Origin: Chitinophagaceae bacterium
GTDB lineage: Bacteria; Bacteroidota; Bacteroidia; Chitinophagales; Chitinophagaceae
NCBI GenBank assembly: GCA_947456805.1
Contig: CANGTN010000016.1
Coordinates: 1-41,856 of the forward strand
Length of the DNA stretch: 41,856 nucleotides
Direction: 5' to 3'
This document shows positions 4,055-37,782 of this stretch, piece after piece. Both the position numbers and the translations under genes were made by a program. The notes beneath the pieces were generated by a model that worked only from the letters and a program-made list of their open reading frames with translations, was not told the DNA's origin and did no database searches. Within the stretch, counting starts at the first letter, position 1. Every line of letters begins with the position of its first letter.

Positions 4055-4072
4055 GTTTTTATGTTTTAAAAT

Positions 4073-4087
4073 TACGCCGAGTTGAGG
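4073..4087. repeat. 15-bp direct repeat, right copy
   Basis: TACGCCGAGTTGAGG, identical to 3838-3852. It lies in the 43-base gap between the minus-strand genes at 4098-4346 and 3878-4054. Thus each of these genes is followed by a copy on its 3' side. Confidence 0.8.
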
Positions 4088-4097
4088 GTTTGTACTT

Positions 4098-4346
4098 TCA
4101 GAATAAAAAATAAATCAAAAAAATTAGAATTGAAATACTTGTTGCAATTAGATATAAAATTATTTTGGATGATTTCATCATTGCTTCAATCTTTTTATTT
4201 CTAAAAATCAAATAAATATTTACTAATGCCAAAATAAAAATTAATAAATAGTAGAGATACTTATATTTCGAATTAGCTGAACCTAATTGACTAGCAAATA
4301 TTATAAAGCAAAATGTCAGCAAAGGAATAATTTTTATATTTCTCAT
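4098..4346 (-). CDS. small hypothetical membrane protein
   Basis: An 82-residue protein with three likely membrane segments (about residues 5-24, 29-47 and 60-82). A short basic loop (FRNKKIEAMMKSSK) lies between the second and third. The first segment could also act as a signal peptide (FASQLGSANS). No family is recognised. It precedes the 58-residue membrane gene at 3878-4054 in the same direction, and both appear to end at the terminator at 3790-3811. Unlike the lipoprotein modules, it has no repeat copy upstream. Confidence 0.6.
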   Translation of the reverse strand: MRNIKIIPLLTFCFIIFASQLGSANSKYKYLYYLLIFILALVNIYLIFRNKKIEAMMKSSKIILYLIATSISILIFLIYFLF

Positions 4347-34134: not shown

Positions 34135-35061
34135 ATGAAGGCATTAATTTATAAATCTACGGGCAGCTGGTATATTACCAAATCAGAAACTGGTAAGTTG
34201 TATAATGCACGTATTAAAGGCGTTTTAAAAATTGATGGCATAACCTCTACCAATCCAATTGCAGTTGGTGATGAAGTGGATATGGAATTGGAAAATGAAT
34301 TAGAAGATACAACCACTATCACAAAAATTCATGAACGAAAAAATTATGTTGCCCGTCAATCTCCGCACAACAAACACCAACATCATATCATTGCAAGTAA
34401 TTTAGATCAAAGTTTGTTATTTGCAACTTTAAAAGAACCCAAAACATCAACCGGTTTTATTGATCGGTTTTTAGTGGCTTGTGAAATGTTTCATATTCCG
34501 GCTATTCTTGTTTTTAATAAAGCTGATGTTTACCGACAAAAAGAATTGGAGAAGTTTGAAGAAATAAAAGCCAATTATGAAGCAATTGGTTACACTGTAA
34601 TTTTAGCAAGCGTTCAAAATAATTTAGGCATTGATGCAATTAAAAATTTACTAAAAGATAAAACTACTTTGTTAAGCGGACATAGCGGTGTTGGAAAATC
34701 TACTTTTATCAATAAACTATTTCCCGATTTGGAATTACGCACTACTGAAGTAAGCAGCTGGAGCGGCAAAGGCATGCACACCACCACTTTCGCTGAAATG
34801 TTTGATTTGCCCTTTGGTGGAAAAATTATTGATACACCGGGTATCCGAGAACTTGGACTTACAGGATTGACAAAGCAAGAGTTGAGTGGTTATTTTCCTG
34901 AAATGAAAGCCTTAATTAATGAATGTCAGTTTAATAATTGTATGCACATAAATGAAGTGGATTGTGCTATAAAAATTGCTGTGAACGAAGGTGCAATTGC
35001 AATTGACAGATATGTGAGCTATATGAATATCCTGGATACAATCGTTGATAAAAAATATTAA
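34135..35061 (+). CDS. rsgA: ribosome small-subunit-dependent GTPase A
   Basis: A circularly permuted GTPase (308 residues) that checks late maturation of the 30S ribosomal subunit. The N-terminal OB-fold is about residues 1-75. The permuted G motifs follow in the order G4 VFNKADVY, G1 GHSGVGKSTFINK, G2-like TTTFAEM and G3 DTPGIRELG. A C-terminal zinc site is formed by ECQFNNCMHINEVDC. The longest frame adds 26 residues at the N-terminus, but MKALIYKSTG fits the family start. A -7-like box (TATCTTCG, 34120-34127) lies seven bases before it. It is convergent to the small lipoprotein at 35058 with a 4-base overlap. Confidence 0.95.
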   Translation: MKALIYKSTGSWYITKSETGKLYNARIKGVLKIDGITSTNPIAVGDEVDMELENELEDTTTITKIHERKNYVARQSPHNKHQHHIIASNLDQSLLFATLKEPKTSTGFIDRFLVACEMFHIPAILVFNKADVYRQKELEKFEEIKANYEAIGYTVILASVQNNLGIDAIKNLLKDKTTLLSGHSGVGKSTFINKLFPDLELRTTEVSSWSGKGMHTTTFAEMFDLPFGGKIIDTPGIRELGLTGLTKQELSGYFPEMKALINECQFNNCMHINEVDCAIKIAVNEGAIAIDRYVSYMNILDTIVDKKY

Positions 35062-35264
35062 CTACCAAATTTGCCCATTTTATAAGCAGGAGCTTTGGGT
35101 GTTTTTTTATCCCCCCTTAATAATTTTTCTGCGCCAACATTTTTCCCATTACTTGGGCAACCATTTTTATTTGCACCACCACCAAAAATACTTTGTAATA
35201 AACTGCATGAGCTTAATGTAATTAGTACAACTAGAATTACAATGATTTGCTTTAATGATTTCAA
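35058..35264 (-). CDS. small lipoprotein, 68 residues
   Basis: A signal peptide with lipobox LSSC (Cys20) and a short, Gly/Lys-rich mature part (GCPSNGKNVGAEKLLRGDKK). I recall this segment from small lipoproteins in other Bacteroidota, though no function is known. The start codon is TTG (35264-35262). A -7-like box (CATCTTTG on the minus strand, 35293-35286) lies about 20 bases upstream. The stop overlaps the convergent rsgA by 4 bases. The 160 bases between it and the next gene hold nothing recognisable. Confidence 0.75.
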   Translation of the reverse strand: MKSLKQIIVILVVLITLSSCSLLQSIFGGGANKNGCPSNGKNVGAEKLLRGDKKTPKAPAYKMGKFGS

Positions 35265-35427
35265 TACTTCAGTTTTTGGATACTACAAAGATGATGAAAA
35301 TTATTTACGAAAAAATATTTTTACGACTGTAACATAAAATGTTTTTAAAAGTTGTCGGTTTTCTGAATATCAATCACGATAAGGGTTTTAAGATTTTTTT
35401 CTATTTGCAAGTTATTATAGGAAGAAA

Positions 35428-35961
35428 TTATTTTTTGGCTTCATTGTACGCATCAAACCAACTTGCATATTTTACATAATTATTGGCAATGCGGTTAATC
35501 TCTCCGCTAATTAGGTTTTCAGAAATATCTTTTACTTTTTTTGCAGGCACTCCGGCATAAATACTTCCGGCTTCTACAATTGTTCCTTCCAGCAATACAG
35601 CCCCTGCAGCAACAATACTATTACTATGTATTTCGCATCTGTCCATCACAATACTGCCCATGCCAATCAACACATTGTCGTGTATCGTGCACCCATGTAC
35701 CAATGCATTGTGCCCGATAGAAACATTATTTCCAATCACAGTTGCATTTTTTTCGTAAGTACAATGTATCACAGCGCCATCTTGTACATTCACTTTATTG
35801 CCCATTTTAATAAAGTTGACATCGCCACGAATGACTGCATTAAACCAGATACTGCAATCGTCTCCCATCGCTACATCGCCTATGATTGTTGCATTTGGAG
35901 CAATAAAACAGTTTTCGCCAAAAGATGGAGTTTTGTCTAGTATGGTTAAGATGTAGGACAT
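35428..35961 (-). CDS. gamma-carbonic-anhydrase-like hexapeptide-repeat protein
   Basis: A 177-residue left-handed beta-helix protein of the YrdA/PaaY/CaiE group of gamma carbonic anhydrases. Hexapeptide repeats run through most of the sequence (NATIIGDVAMGDDCSIWFNAVIRGD, NKVNVQDGAVIHC, NNVSIGHNALVHGCTIHDNVLIGMG). The His residues expected to bind zinc are at HC after AVI, GHNALVHG and nearby. The C-terminal helix begins after YAGVPAKKV. Cytoplasmic trimer in known relatives; whether it acts as a carbonic anhydrase, a thioesterase-like or other enzyme cannot be told. It is divergent from the four-helix-bundle gene. Confidence 0.9.
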   Translation of the reverse strand: MSYILTILDKTPSFGENCFIAPNATIIGDVAMGDDCSIWFNAVIRGDVNFIKMGNKVNVQDGAVIHCTYEKNATVIGNNVSIGHNALVHGCTIHDNVLIGMGSIVMDRCEIHSNSIVAAGAVLLEGTIVEAGSIYAGVPAKKVKDISENLISGEINRIANNYVKYASWFDAYNEAKK

Positions 35962-35985
35962 TGGTTTAAGTTGACAGATTTTTGG

Positions 35986-36000
35986 ATGACAGATGACAGG
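35986..36000 (+). repeat. left inverted repeat of a possible small element
   Basis: ATGACAGATGACAGG. Its reverse complement matches CCTCTGTTATCTGTCAT at 36524-36540 with one base change and two extra bases. The two bracket the four-helix-bundle gene. Confidence 0.6.
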
Positions 36001-36042
36001 ATTACTATTTCAAATGTAACTTTATCTTTCATAAAAATTGTT

Positions 36043-36408
36043 ATGACCAACTATAAAAATTTGTTGGCTTGGCAAAAAGCCATGCTTTTGGTTAAAGAGA
36101 TTTATACTGTTACCAAACTTTATCCTAAAGAAGAATTGTTTGCATTAACCTCACAAACAAAACGGGCTGCTGTTTCTATTCCAAGTAATATTGCAGAAGG
36201 GTGTGGCAGAAAATCAAAAAAAGATACGAGTCATTTTTTATACATTTCAAGAGGATCATTGTATGAATTAGAAACGCATTTAAATATTGCTGTAATGATT
36301 GAAATTTTATCAGAAGCATCTTTTCAAAAAATTATATTAATATTAGATGAGTGTTTAAAAATTTTAAACGGCTTAATTCGCAGATATGAAAATGATGATT
36401 TAAAATGA
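36043..36408 (+). CDS. four-helix-bundle protein (S23/TIGR02436 type)
   Basis: A 121-residue helical protein of the family first described as '23S rRNA intervening sequence protein'. The start MTNYKNLLAWQKAMLLVKEIY, then TKLYPKEELFALTSQTKRAAVSIPSNIAEG and HFLYISRGSLYELETHL are typical. Related Avd proteins act in diversity-generating retroelements, but no reverse transcriptase is nearby. The start at 36043 is preferred over an in-frame ATG 24 codons earlier, which lies in the inverted-repeat region. The gene is bracketed by inverted repeats (35986-36000, 36524-36540), and a remnant of a second copy lies just downstream. This suggests a small mobile or repeat-associated unit. Function is unknown. 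Confidence 0.9.
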   Translation: MTNYKNLLAWQKAMLLVKEIYTVTKLYPKEELFALTSQTKRAAVSIPSNIAEGCGRKSKKDTSHFLYISRGSLYELETHLNIAVMIEILSEASFQKIILILDECLKILNGLIRRYENDDLK

Positions 36409-36460
36409 AAATAACTTTTATGAAACCTCTGTCATATAGTGACTTTAAATATTTAATAAA

Positions 36461-36505
36461 CTAAACGAGTTAATAAGTAGATATGAAAATGATGACTTAA
36501 AATAA
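36461..36505 (+). pseudogene. 3' remnant of a second four-helix-bundle gene
   Basis: Fourteen codons and a TAA encode LNELISRYENDDLK, against LNGLIRRYENDDLK at the end of the intact gene. Of the 14 codons several differ only silently, and the stops differ (TGA versus TAA). The similarity continues about 30 bases past both stops. So it is a diverged copy rather than a simple recent duplication, left by deletion or recombination. Confidence 0.7.
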
Positions 36506-36523
36506 AAATAACTTTTTATGAAA

Positions 36524-36540
36524 CCTCTGTTATCTGTCAT
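36524..36540 (+). repeat. right inverted repeat of a possible small element
   Basis: CCTCTGTTATCTGTCAT, near reverse complement of 35986-36000. It runs straight into the 14-bp tandem repeats. Confidence 0.6.
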
Positions 36541-36585
36541 CTAACTTCTGTCATCTAACTTCTGTCATCTAACCTCTGTCAACTA
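36533..36585 (+). repeat. 14-bp tandem repeat, nearly four copies
   Basis: Units TCTGTCATCTAACT at 36533 and 36547, TCTGTCATCTAACC at 36561, and a partial TCTGTCAACTA at 36575. The array ends just before the ATG of the aminotransferase at 36589, so its copy number could affect that gene's leader. Confidence 0.9.
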
Positions 36586-36588
36586 ATT

Positions 36589-37782
36589 ATGAATACACGT
36601 CAATTATTTCTTGCTCATCTTGCACAAACATCTCCTGCGCCAATTGGTATTGAAATGGTGAAAGCAGAAGGAATTTATTTGTATGATAAGGATGGTAAAA
36701 AATATATTGATGGAATTTCAGGTTTTAGCGTTGCCAATATTGGACACTCTAATCCGTTGGTAATTGAAGCTGTCAAAAAGCAGGCAGAGCAATACATGCA
36801 CTTAATTGTGTATGGCGAATTTATTCAGCAGCCGCAAGTAGCTTATGCAAAATTGTTAACTGATTATTTACCGCAATCTTTAAACTGTGTTTACTTTACC
36901 AACAGTGGTGCAGAAGCAACAGAAGGTGCTATGAAGCTTGCAAAACGTGTTACTGGACGAACAAAAACAATTGCATTCAACCACTCGTATCATGGAAGTA
37001 CACAAGGTGCGTTGAGTGTAATGGGTGATGAATATTGGCGCAATGCTTTCAGGCCGTTATTGCCCGAAGTATATCATTACGATTATGGAAGTGAAGCTGC
37101 ATTGGCAGCAATTGATGATACCGTTGCATGCGTTATCATGGAAACAGTACAAGCCGAAGCAGGTATTAATGCCCCTACAAAATCATGGATACAAGCTGTT
37201 CGTGAAAAGTGCGATGAACATTGTGTTTTATTGATTCTGGATGAAATACAAAGTGGTTTTGGCAGGTCGGGAACGCTATGGGCTTTTGAACAATTTGATG
37301 TTGTGCCCGATGTTTTATTGCTGGGAAAAGCATTGGGCGGCGGTATGCCAATTGGTGCTTTTGTTGCAGACACCCGACTCATGAACACGTTAACCAATAA
37401 CCCTGTATTGGGCCATATTACTACGTTTGGCGGACATCCGGTAAGTTGTGCTGCGGGTAAAGCAGCATTTGAATTTTTAGTAAATGATACATTGGTACAT
37501 GATGTTAAAGCGAAAGAAAAAATATTATTGAGCAACATTCATCATCCTTCTATACAATCTATCAAAAGCGTTGGATTGTGGATGGCAATTGCGTTTGATA
37601 GTTTTGAAACCAATCATGCCATTATTCAGAAATGTATTGCAAAAGGATTGATTACTGACTGGTTTTTGTTTGCACCCCATTGTATGCGCATTGCACCGCC
37701 ATTAATTACTACAGAACAAGAGTTGATCAACATCTGCAATATTATTAACGAAAGCATCAGTGAATATTCCCATGCTGAATAA
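36589..37782 (+). CDS. class III PLP-dependent aminotransferase
   Basis: A 397-residue enzyme of the class III (acetylornithine/ornithine/GABA type) aminotransferases. Motifs: YLYDKDGKKYIDGISGFSV, the cofactor segment NSGAEATEGAMKLAKR, FNHSYHGSTQGALSVMG, ILDEIQSGFGRSGTLWAFE, and the PLP lysine in LLLGKALGGGMPIGAFV (about residue 246). The end has MRIAPPLITTEQEL. Residues near the substrate pocket do not let me choose between ornithine, acetylornithine and other amino donors. The upstream leader is very short and contains the 14-bp tandem repeat array. Confidence 0.92.
   Translation: MNTRQLFLAHLAQTSPAPIGIEMVKAEGIYLYDKDGKKYIDGISGFSVANIGHSNPLVIEAVKKQAEQYMHLIVYGEFIQQPQVAYAKLLTDYLPQSLNCVYFTNSGAEATEGAMKLAKRVTGRTKTIAFNHSYHGSTQGALSVMGDEYWRNAFRPLLPEVYHYDYGSEAALAAIDDTVACVIMETVQAEAGINAPTKSWIQAVREKCDEHCVLLILDEIQSGFGRSGTLWAFEQFDVVPDVLLLGKALGGGMPIGAFVADTRLMNTLTNNPVLGHITTFGGHPVSCAAGKAAFEFLVNDTLVHDVKAKEKILLSNIHHPSIQSIKSVGLWMAIAFDSFETNHAIIQKCIAKGLITDWFLFAPHCMRIAPPLITTEQELINICNIINESISEYSHAE

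Follow-up and report, generated by a model that had tools for sequence, protein, structure and literature searches.

The intervening sequence (IVS) of the Coxiella 23S rRNA gene has 428 nt, carries the S23p gene, is closed by a 28-bp terminal stem and is excised by RNase III (PMC4990558). Tandem heptamers of the unit GACAGAT precede the gene; their copy number differs by strain, and they are treated there as a local feature of one species. S23p is also named for Leptospira, Brucella and Xanthomonas, and the function and origin of rRNA IVS are described as unclear (PMC4990558). The present work concerns a gene of the same family, coding for a four-helix-bundle (4HB) protein of 121 aa, in a stretch of 41,856 nt from a Chitinophagaceae bacterium (contig CANGTN010000016.1, assembly GCA_947456805.1). 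This whole stretch is called the window. The gene is placed between inverted arrays of 7-nt units, and the locus is probably an old copy of a mobile IVS-like element of about 0.4-0.6 kb, in which a 4HB gene between inverted heptamer arrays inserts as a unit in operon gaps.

Like the rRNA IVS, the elements are about 0.4 kb long and contain a single 4HB gene, which belongs to the same Pfam family, together with complementary ends and tandem heptamers (PMC4990558), and the Coxiella unit GACAGAT also occurs in the left array of the window. The kinship with rRNA IVS mentioned in a preliminary description of this DNA is supported by the PF05635 match of the window gene and by the similar Coxiella layout. 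The difference lies in location. The window element has the S23/4HB frame and the complementary ends of an IVS, but its neighbours are protein genes, and the elements described here occupy operon gaps instead of the inside of a 23S rRNA gene. RNase III excision has been shown for the rRNA form. Because an rRNA form with the same layout was already known, they are filed as an IVS-like variant outside rRNA, presumably of the same kind as the 23S rRNA IVS.

Heptamer repeats have also been reported, without a common explanation, in Beggiatoaceae, Cyanobacteria and Bacteroidetes (PMC4679880) and in Xanthomonas and Nostoc (PMC4692102). They share with the present arrays the 7-nt tandem units, the mostly intergenic position and, in Xanthomonas, the inverted pairs; a word search of the main texts of both papers finds no mention of a 4HB or S23 gene (PMC4679880, PMC4692102). 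In the literature searched, mainly outside subscription journals, no publication was found that connects stand-alone 4HB genes to heptamer arrays on their flanks.

Repetitive extragenic palindromic (REP) sequences with their REP-associated tyrosine (Y1) transposases (RAYT) and miniature inverted-repeat transposable elements (MITE) are likewise short inverted units placed in gaps; gene-less copies occur, and a gene may be bracketed by the repeats. They differ from the 4HB elements, whose ends are heptamer arrays of locus-specific sequence, and the genome of the window has no Y1 match (PF01797). The Avd protein of diversity-generating retroelements belongs to the same fold family, and the window protein matches bAvd (28.7 bits, cut-off 40) and DivGenRetAVD (25.8 bits, cut-off 80) weakly and under the cut-offs; a reverse transcriptase (PF00078) is again without match in this genome, other transposase families not having been searched. 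The 4HB (S23) genes are common and stand without functional annotation in the records examined. The elements would join three subjects, namely stand-alone 4HB genes, rRNA IVS and orphan heptamer repeats, and their arrays may be the source of some of the latter. They are apparently a widespread and undescribed kind of mobile DNA.

The window locus and its close relative

The 4HB gene spans 36043..36408 on the + strand and matches PF05635, the 23S rRNA-intervening sequence protein (129.3 bits, cut-off 33.8, E-value 8e-38), and TIGR02436 (121.3 bits, cut-off 24, E-value 2e-35). The left array (35969..35999), the outer end of the element, consists of AGTTGACAG, a short gap and GATGACA-GATGACA units; AGTTGACAG and GATGACAGATGACAG both lie on this side of the gene. 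Past the gene's own tail comes a first, degenerate piece of a right array, CCTCTGTCATATAG (36426..36439), identified from the direct repeat families D1 and D3. The right array itself (36526..36588) has nine heptamers of the TCTGTCA/TCTAACT type that reach the start codon of the next gene. That the gene is bracketed by a sequence and its near reverse complement, as first described, was confirmed. The arms at 35982-35999 and 36527-36544 have 18 nt and are 89% complementary, and AGTTGACAG (35969-35977) and CTGTCAACT (36576-36584) are reverse complements without any mismatch, which places the ends further out than previously given.

Between the gene and the right array lies the tail of a second 4HB copy (36461..36505, + strand), found by repeat analysis and translation. 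Its 14 codons, LNELISRYENDDLK (36461-36502), are followed by the stop TAA, and the first copy ends in LNGLIRRYENDDLK and TGA. The remnant and its different stop were described correctly; besides silent differences at three of the shared codons (L, I, D) there are amino-acid replacements at two (G/E, R/S), so that the changes are not confined to silent ones. The sequence past both stops is also alike, as noted before, in a 55-nt direct repeat at 87%. This tail appears to have come from a partial duplication or to be what remains of a second copy.

In the close relative G005 the same gene occupies the same site, with 98% protein identity, arrays on both sides and a single tail, without the extra copy. 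The stop of this gene is TAA, as in the second copy of the window. The left array of G005 is exactly one 7-nt unit shorter, and the right array has equal length (63 nt, hand count) with several units rewritten. The preliminary description had proposed that such units insert at or replace one another in one site. It was correct in essence as to a unit that can insert, and the feature is far more general than one repeat; at this site there is no sign of replacement, G005 carrying the same gene. An old and decayed copy is the best reading of the window locus. An Rfam search of positions 35000-37600 gave a sole match far under the gathering score, judged to be chance, and a protein search of a phage collection with the window 4HB gave none.

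Inverted pairing of the flanks across 4HB loci

The pairing of flanks was measured in 153 loci picked by the protein alone. The relatives' set comprises 73 loci, from 78 4HB genes found with hidden Markov models (HMM) in L001-L074, five being dropped for length or short flanks. The named-genome set holds the best 80, by protein score, of at least 589 stretches retrieved with seven aligned 4HB proteins as query; the search pattern confines them to one 4HB protein subgroup. Their grouping by phylum follows the record titles, and some are metagenome bins whose labels may be wrong. For each locus the upstream flank was aligned locally with its own downstream flank in reverse complement, the best alignment giving the score, and the background is given by mismatched left/right pairs.

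The mean inverted score of the 73 loci is 18.9, compared with 10.5 for mismatched pairs. The 95th percentile of these pairs is exceeded by 49 of the 73 loci and the 99th by 30, against only seven and six in direct orientation. Control open reading frames of the same stretches (n=135) have a mean of 11.0, a 95th percentile of 15.3 and a maximum of 27. The named genomes, from many phyla, behave alike: 49/80 loci lie above the 95th percentile in inverted and 17/80 in direct orientation. By group, 18 of 41 Bacteroidota loci and 31 of 39 from other phyla exceed the 95th percentile in inverted orientation (6 and 22 the 99th), with 8 and 9 in direct orientation (4 and 5 above the 99th). Both sets together give 98/153 loci above the 95th percentile. 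The window score of 17 falls between the 95th (15) and the 99th percentile (19), so that this locus taken alone is only moderately unusual and could by itself suggest chance, that is, a few short repeats near one gene. With a score of 23 at the same site in G005 and the excess over all 153 loci, chance is refuted at the level of the family and is hardly credible.

A PF05635 match is present in 49/59 relatives, and the own genome (G000) has five. By eye, all five own-genome loci are flanked on either side by short repeats whose unit differs by locus, and three score above the 95th percentile (L001 24, L004 18, L002 17). The search for the window's inverted repeats beside the other 4HB genes, suggested earlier, had a divided outcome: those genes have repeats of their own, but GATGACAGATGACAG is no shared end sequence, and the motif AGATGACAG/CTGTCATCT does not occur in the 3.3-kb stretches around the other four own-genome genes.

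Stand-alone 4HB genes are thus often flanked by tandem repeats, mostly of 7 bp, the left and right ones being reverse complements of a locus-specific unit. Arrays with a period of 6-8 were found upstream in 62 of the 153 loci (period 7, 49; period 8, 11; period 6, 2) and downstream in 51 (43, 7 and 1, respectively). In the best 28-nt segment of the 73 loci, lag-7 matches average 17.2 upstream and 17.6 downstream (controls, 13.3 and 13.2); lag 14, a multiple of 7, also stands out, and at lags 8 and 9 the increase stays under 1.2. On the coding strand G exceeds C in 57/62 upstream arrays and C exceeds G in 46/51 downstream arrays, and so the G-rich strand faces inward. The phase-free consensus of 92 period-7 arrays is a loose TTAGTnG, with a log-likelihood of 199.6, against 155.7 (s.d. 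2.8, highest of 20 runs 162.2) when positions are permuted within heptamers. A very long left array, of several hundred nt of GGTGACA/GGGAACA, lies between cas6 and the 4HB gene of the Anabaena sp. 90 plasmid pANA02 (L308:2590-2990).

The two arms of a locus resemble each other more than the arms of another genome at the same site. This comparison used 115 non-independent same-site pairs with proteins at most 75% identical; L002, L035 and L016 were taken out of site group S1 and read as other sites. The own left/right match has a mean of 15.5, the cross-genome left/right match 10.3 and the different-site background 9.1, and own exceeds cross in 98/115 pairs; among closer same-site pairs the cross values are mostly near the own values. 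As the own match exceeds the cross match, there is either a concerted change of both arms or an exchange of entire elements. Lengths of copies at one site differ by 7 nt (window site and G005) or by 14 nt (TrbI site of cyanobacterial plasmids).

The pairing of the arms could also be kept for a role in RNA, in which the arrays pair in the polycistronic mRNA, the 4HB part is looped out and RNase III cuts, under selection for the stem. The strong sense-strand bias inside operons agrees with such a role. Selection for a stem, on the other hand, would not favour a 7-nt period and should leave an excess of G.U pairs, which are no commoner than A.C among the arm mismatches of the sense strand at three thresholds (83 vs 90, 98 vs 119, 111 vs 141; eight near-duplicate orthologues left out). 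RNA-stem selection was therefore rejected as the cause of the arm pairing, and the RNA role as a whole is rather unlikely. For their joint change a process acting on the DNA is favoured, for instance template switching from one inverted arm to the other. Following insertion, the arrays would gain and lose 7-nt units on both sides together, most likely by this route.

Filled and gene-less sites

The window 4HB protein matches 22 plasmid records, mostly cyanobacterial, and inverted arrays are strong in seven (25-32) and weak in one (12) of the first eight plasmid loci. The earlier suggestion to look for an empty site led to relatives without the gene at nine plasmid sites: TraM, TrbI, integrase, L321, ribonucleotide reductase (where the element is antisense), cas6/cas4, cas10/cmr3 and two gaps of one Nostoc operon. 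The junctions were read in a few relatives per site. By eye, these gene-less relatives lack a clear heptamer array in all but two cases: L312, at the TraM site, has an inverted pair without a gene, and L315, at the TrbI site, has an array and a 4HB fragment (HMM E 6e-7); at the cas6/cas4 site the gene-less relative holds a different insert.

Two sites preserve clean junctions. At the TrbI site the empty L314 reads AAAAA-GTAAT-TAACAAAT and the filled L307 reads AAAAA-GTAAT-(423 bp)-GTAAT-TAACAAAT, with flanks 99.7% and 97.7% identical; Scytonema L313 carries the element of L307, 14 nt shorter on the left. Trichormus variabilis ATCC 29413 also has a filled TrbI site. At Nostoc site 4 the empty L319 and L327 read GGTTCTAGGTTATG and the filled L320 reads GGTTCTA-(413 bp)-TTCTAGTTATG, with flanks 90-92% identical and a 5-bp duplication TTCTA; in L328, filled at this site, the right duplication copy is altered. 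In both cases the gene and both arrays lie between the copies of the 5-bp duplication (GTAAT, TTCTA). The elements L307, L320 and L321 occupy three unrelated sites and share 78-82% identity over 416-419 bp. Their homology includes both arrays and stops some ten bases or less from the edges of the element; all other matches are short and run from array to array. The element is a discrete unit, present or absent at sites in near relatives.

Variation is also seen between G000 and G005. About 450 nt of the G005 element L037 are missing from one site of G000, where the last ten codons of the element remain as a deletion scar; the 4HB gene of L037 contains an internal TAA. At another site, with flanks 92% identical, different 4HB proteins with about half of their residues alike occupy one gap, and the difference extends from near the upstream stop to the downstream start codon. 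The tree still pairs these two proteins (SH-aLRT, the Shimodaira-Hasegawa-like approximate likelihood ratio test, 91), which may reflect exchange by a relative or fast divergence. With the filled and gene-less sites, the differing elements in one gap and the remnants, the earlier idea that gene and inverted repeats can be inserted or lost as one unit is supported. The gene and both arrays would insert together, usually between two operon genes and in the direction of transcription. The host genes would be left intact and the 4HB gene could be read from the host operon.

The arrays might instead lie outside the moving unit, the 4HB genes having settled in pre-existing heptamer arrays or the arrays having grown later by slippage. 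Heptamer arrays without a gene do exist, and the aminotransferase site of L077 and L086 has, by eye, arrays and no 4HB gene. This origin is nonetheless improbable, given that most compared relatives have no array at the gene-less site (by eye), as filled/empty pairs indicate, that the homology between elements at different sites covers both arrays, and that left and right arrays pair inverted with fixed polarity.

Gene-less arrays were counted with a threshold of 21/28 matches at lag 7 in random stretches of 11 genomes, partly on contigs known from earlier matches. Genomes with 12-14 4HB genes each have 15 arrays per 400 kb (G007 and G013), 2 and 1 per 140 kb (G035 and G002) and 4 per 120 kb (G016). 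Genomes without a 4HB match have none in 160 (G026), 120 (G015), 80 (G011) and 20 kb (G022), and those with one match have 0 per 200 kb (G006) and 2 per 194 kb (G008); G007, G006 and G008 belong to one genus with a GC fraction of 0.29-0.31. The totals are 37 arrays in 1200 kb of 4HB-rich genomes, two of them flanking a 4HB gene, vs 2 in 774 kb. Within ±400 nt of 78 4HB genes (91 kb) there are 45 arrays, and 30 in 800 kb of random stretches, a density about 13 times higher around the genes; the stricter threshold of 23/28 leaves 6 arrays per 800 kb, in G007 and G013. Repeats without such genes, which the preliminary description had counted as evidence against the association, do therefore exist, yet the link holds through the higher density around 4HB genes.

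A plain derivation of the gene-less arrays from 4HB elements was rejected, as the fit of the 39 random-stretch arrays (two flanking a 4HB gene) to TTAGTnG does not exceed that of permuted heptamers. No 4HB remnant was detected by HMM in five inverted pairs of random stretches; long open frames that do not match 4HB are present in two of their spacers, one resembling the ileS N-terminus by reading. In G007 a heptamer array lies inside a frame that resembles the N-terminal part of ileS (L127:17628-17671), so that the repeat is translated. Further gene-less inverted pairs, which speak for such a derivation, occur in Aulosira plasmid2 (L321:3282-3433 and 4070-4268), in Nostoc ATCC 53789 pNsp_a (L320:1207-1475) and in G013 (L156:8255-8449), with the GAGTCAG/AATTCAG units of the 4HB elements L307, L320 and L321. 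The pair of G013 and that of the Nostoc plasmid are alike in 26/26 bases. Only some gene-less pairs have units of known elements, and the spacers are not common to Bacteroidota and cyanobacteria.

Operon gaps, inheritance and the 4HB protein

The 4HB gene stands in sense between two same-strand neighbours, taken as open reading frames called by script, in 65/73 and 70/80 loci (135/153; control genes, 73/134). The median gaps to the neighbours are 69 and 52 nt in the first set and 60 and 50 nt in the second. Among the sites used repeatedly, with gene names by reading, 13 loci lie in the gap ahead of an sdhB-like gene, six at argC/argD and six at a thiolase. In all 153 loci no match to four short 23S motifs was found. 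A unit of this kind would be a small mobile element living in operons with little harm.

Several observations weigh against a mobile element of this kind. On a quick tree of the 153 proteins there are 20 site-label changes, with a minimum of 16 and 45.8 when shuffled; since the number is near the minimum, the chromosomal elements are mostly inherited in place. The 4HB copies within one genome are very divergent (median identities 0.275-0.36) and, together with the inheritance in place, this indicates that recent movement on chromosomes is rare. Clean target duplication is absent from the other seven of the nine site comparisons and from the window element, which does not lie between two co-directional genes. 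At the TrbI site the remnant of the nearest outgroup L315 has a left junction almost that of L307, and the empty TrbI plasmids might therefore be precise losses; the unit is discrete either way. In addition, 55/153 loci are not above the 95th percentile, among them L003 (13) and L005 (11) of the own genome; in L003 the nearest arrays on both sides run in the same direction. The polarity is reversed in 4/62 arrays on the upstream side and in 4/51 on the downstream side. Finally, a part of the 4HB protein in the movement, by binding of the arrays, is inferred.

The 4HB protein is under purifying selection, with dN/dS (the ratio of nonsynonymous to synonymous rates) of 0.05-0.25 in nine of twelve pairs; dS is saturated in three pairs and nearly so in one more. 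Across 18 members the columns Q38, S45, N49, E52, G53, S72 and E75 are invariant. The sole solved relative at E <= 0.001 is 2gsc, and the Xanthomonas S23p structure is a toroidal homopentamer (PMC4990558). A wider and more tentative proposal sees pan-bacterial autonomous elements with the 4HB protein, a pentamer in the solved relative, as their sole protein. It would recognize its own 7-nt arrays, perhaps one unit per ring subunit, and insert the element in sense into operon gaps by a 5-bp stagger; it would thereby generate heptamer arrays that are found across bacterial genomes, and the rRNA IVS would be the special case of an insertion in rRNA.

The element may on the contrary be a MITE-like passenger, moved by a transposase or reverse transcriptase encoded elsewhere, the 4HB protein being otherwise employed. 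In favour of this, the 4HB family is not known to contain a catalytic domain, ordinary transposases usually produce a 5-bp target duplication, and gene-less pairs with the same units exist. Matches to PF00078 and PF01797 are present in 15 and 41 of the 59 relatives, respectively. The own genome matches neither family, and for this reason neither the reverse transcriptase nor the Y1 transposase was retained as a necessary helper. PF00078 is likewise missing from G035 (14 4HB genes) and G009 (19), and PF01797 from G007 (12) and G032 (8), as judged from these two families alone. Locus-specific ends are also ill-suited to a transposase that needs a fixed end sequence. The passenger explanation is accordingly somewhat doubtful, although it is the strongest competitor of an IVS-like unit that moves with its own gene and arrays. 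With the near-identical filled and empty sites of cyanobacterial plasmids the movement can be tested directly, and the heptamer offers itself as a ligand for tests of the protein.

In the window, the upstream neighbour of the element is a divergent gene (35428..35961, - strand) for a hexapeptide-repeat, carbonic-anhydrase-like protein, with 157 bits to a gamma carbonic anhydrase model, under its cut-off of 250. The downstream neighbour (36589..37782, +), on the same strand as the 4HB gene, codes for a class-III aminotransferase (PF00202, E 2e-95). Elsewhere, a short stretch (L036:2800-2910) recurs dozens of times, at 74-100% identity, in the own genome and in relatives and is a dispersed repeat. 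In Nostoc edaphicum pNe_5 a 4HB element lies antisense between two ribonucleotide reductase genes (L304:2995-3363). On other cyanobacterial plasmids 4HB elements are placed within CRISPR-Cas operons of types I-D and III-B, in the cas6/cas4 gap (L309, L308) and in the cas10/cmr3 gap (L322).
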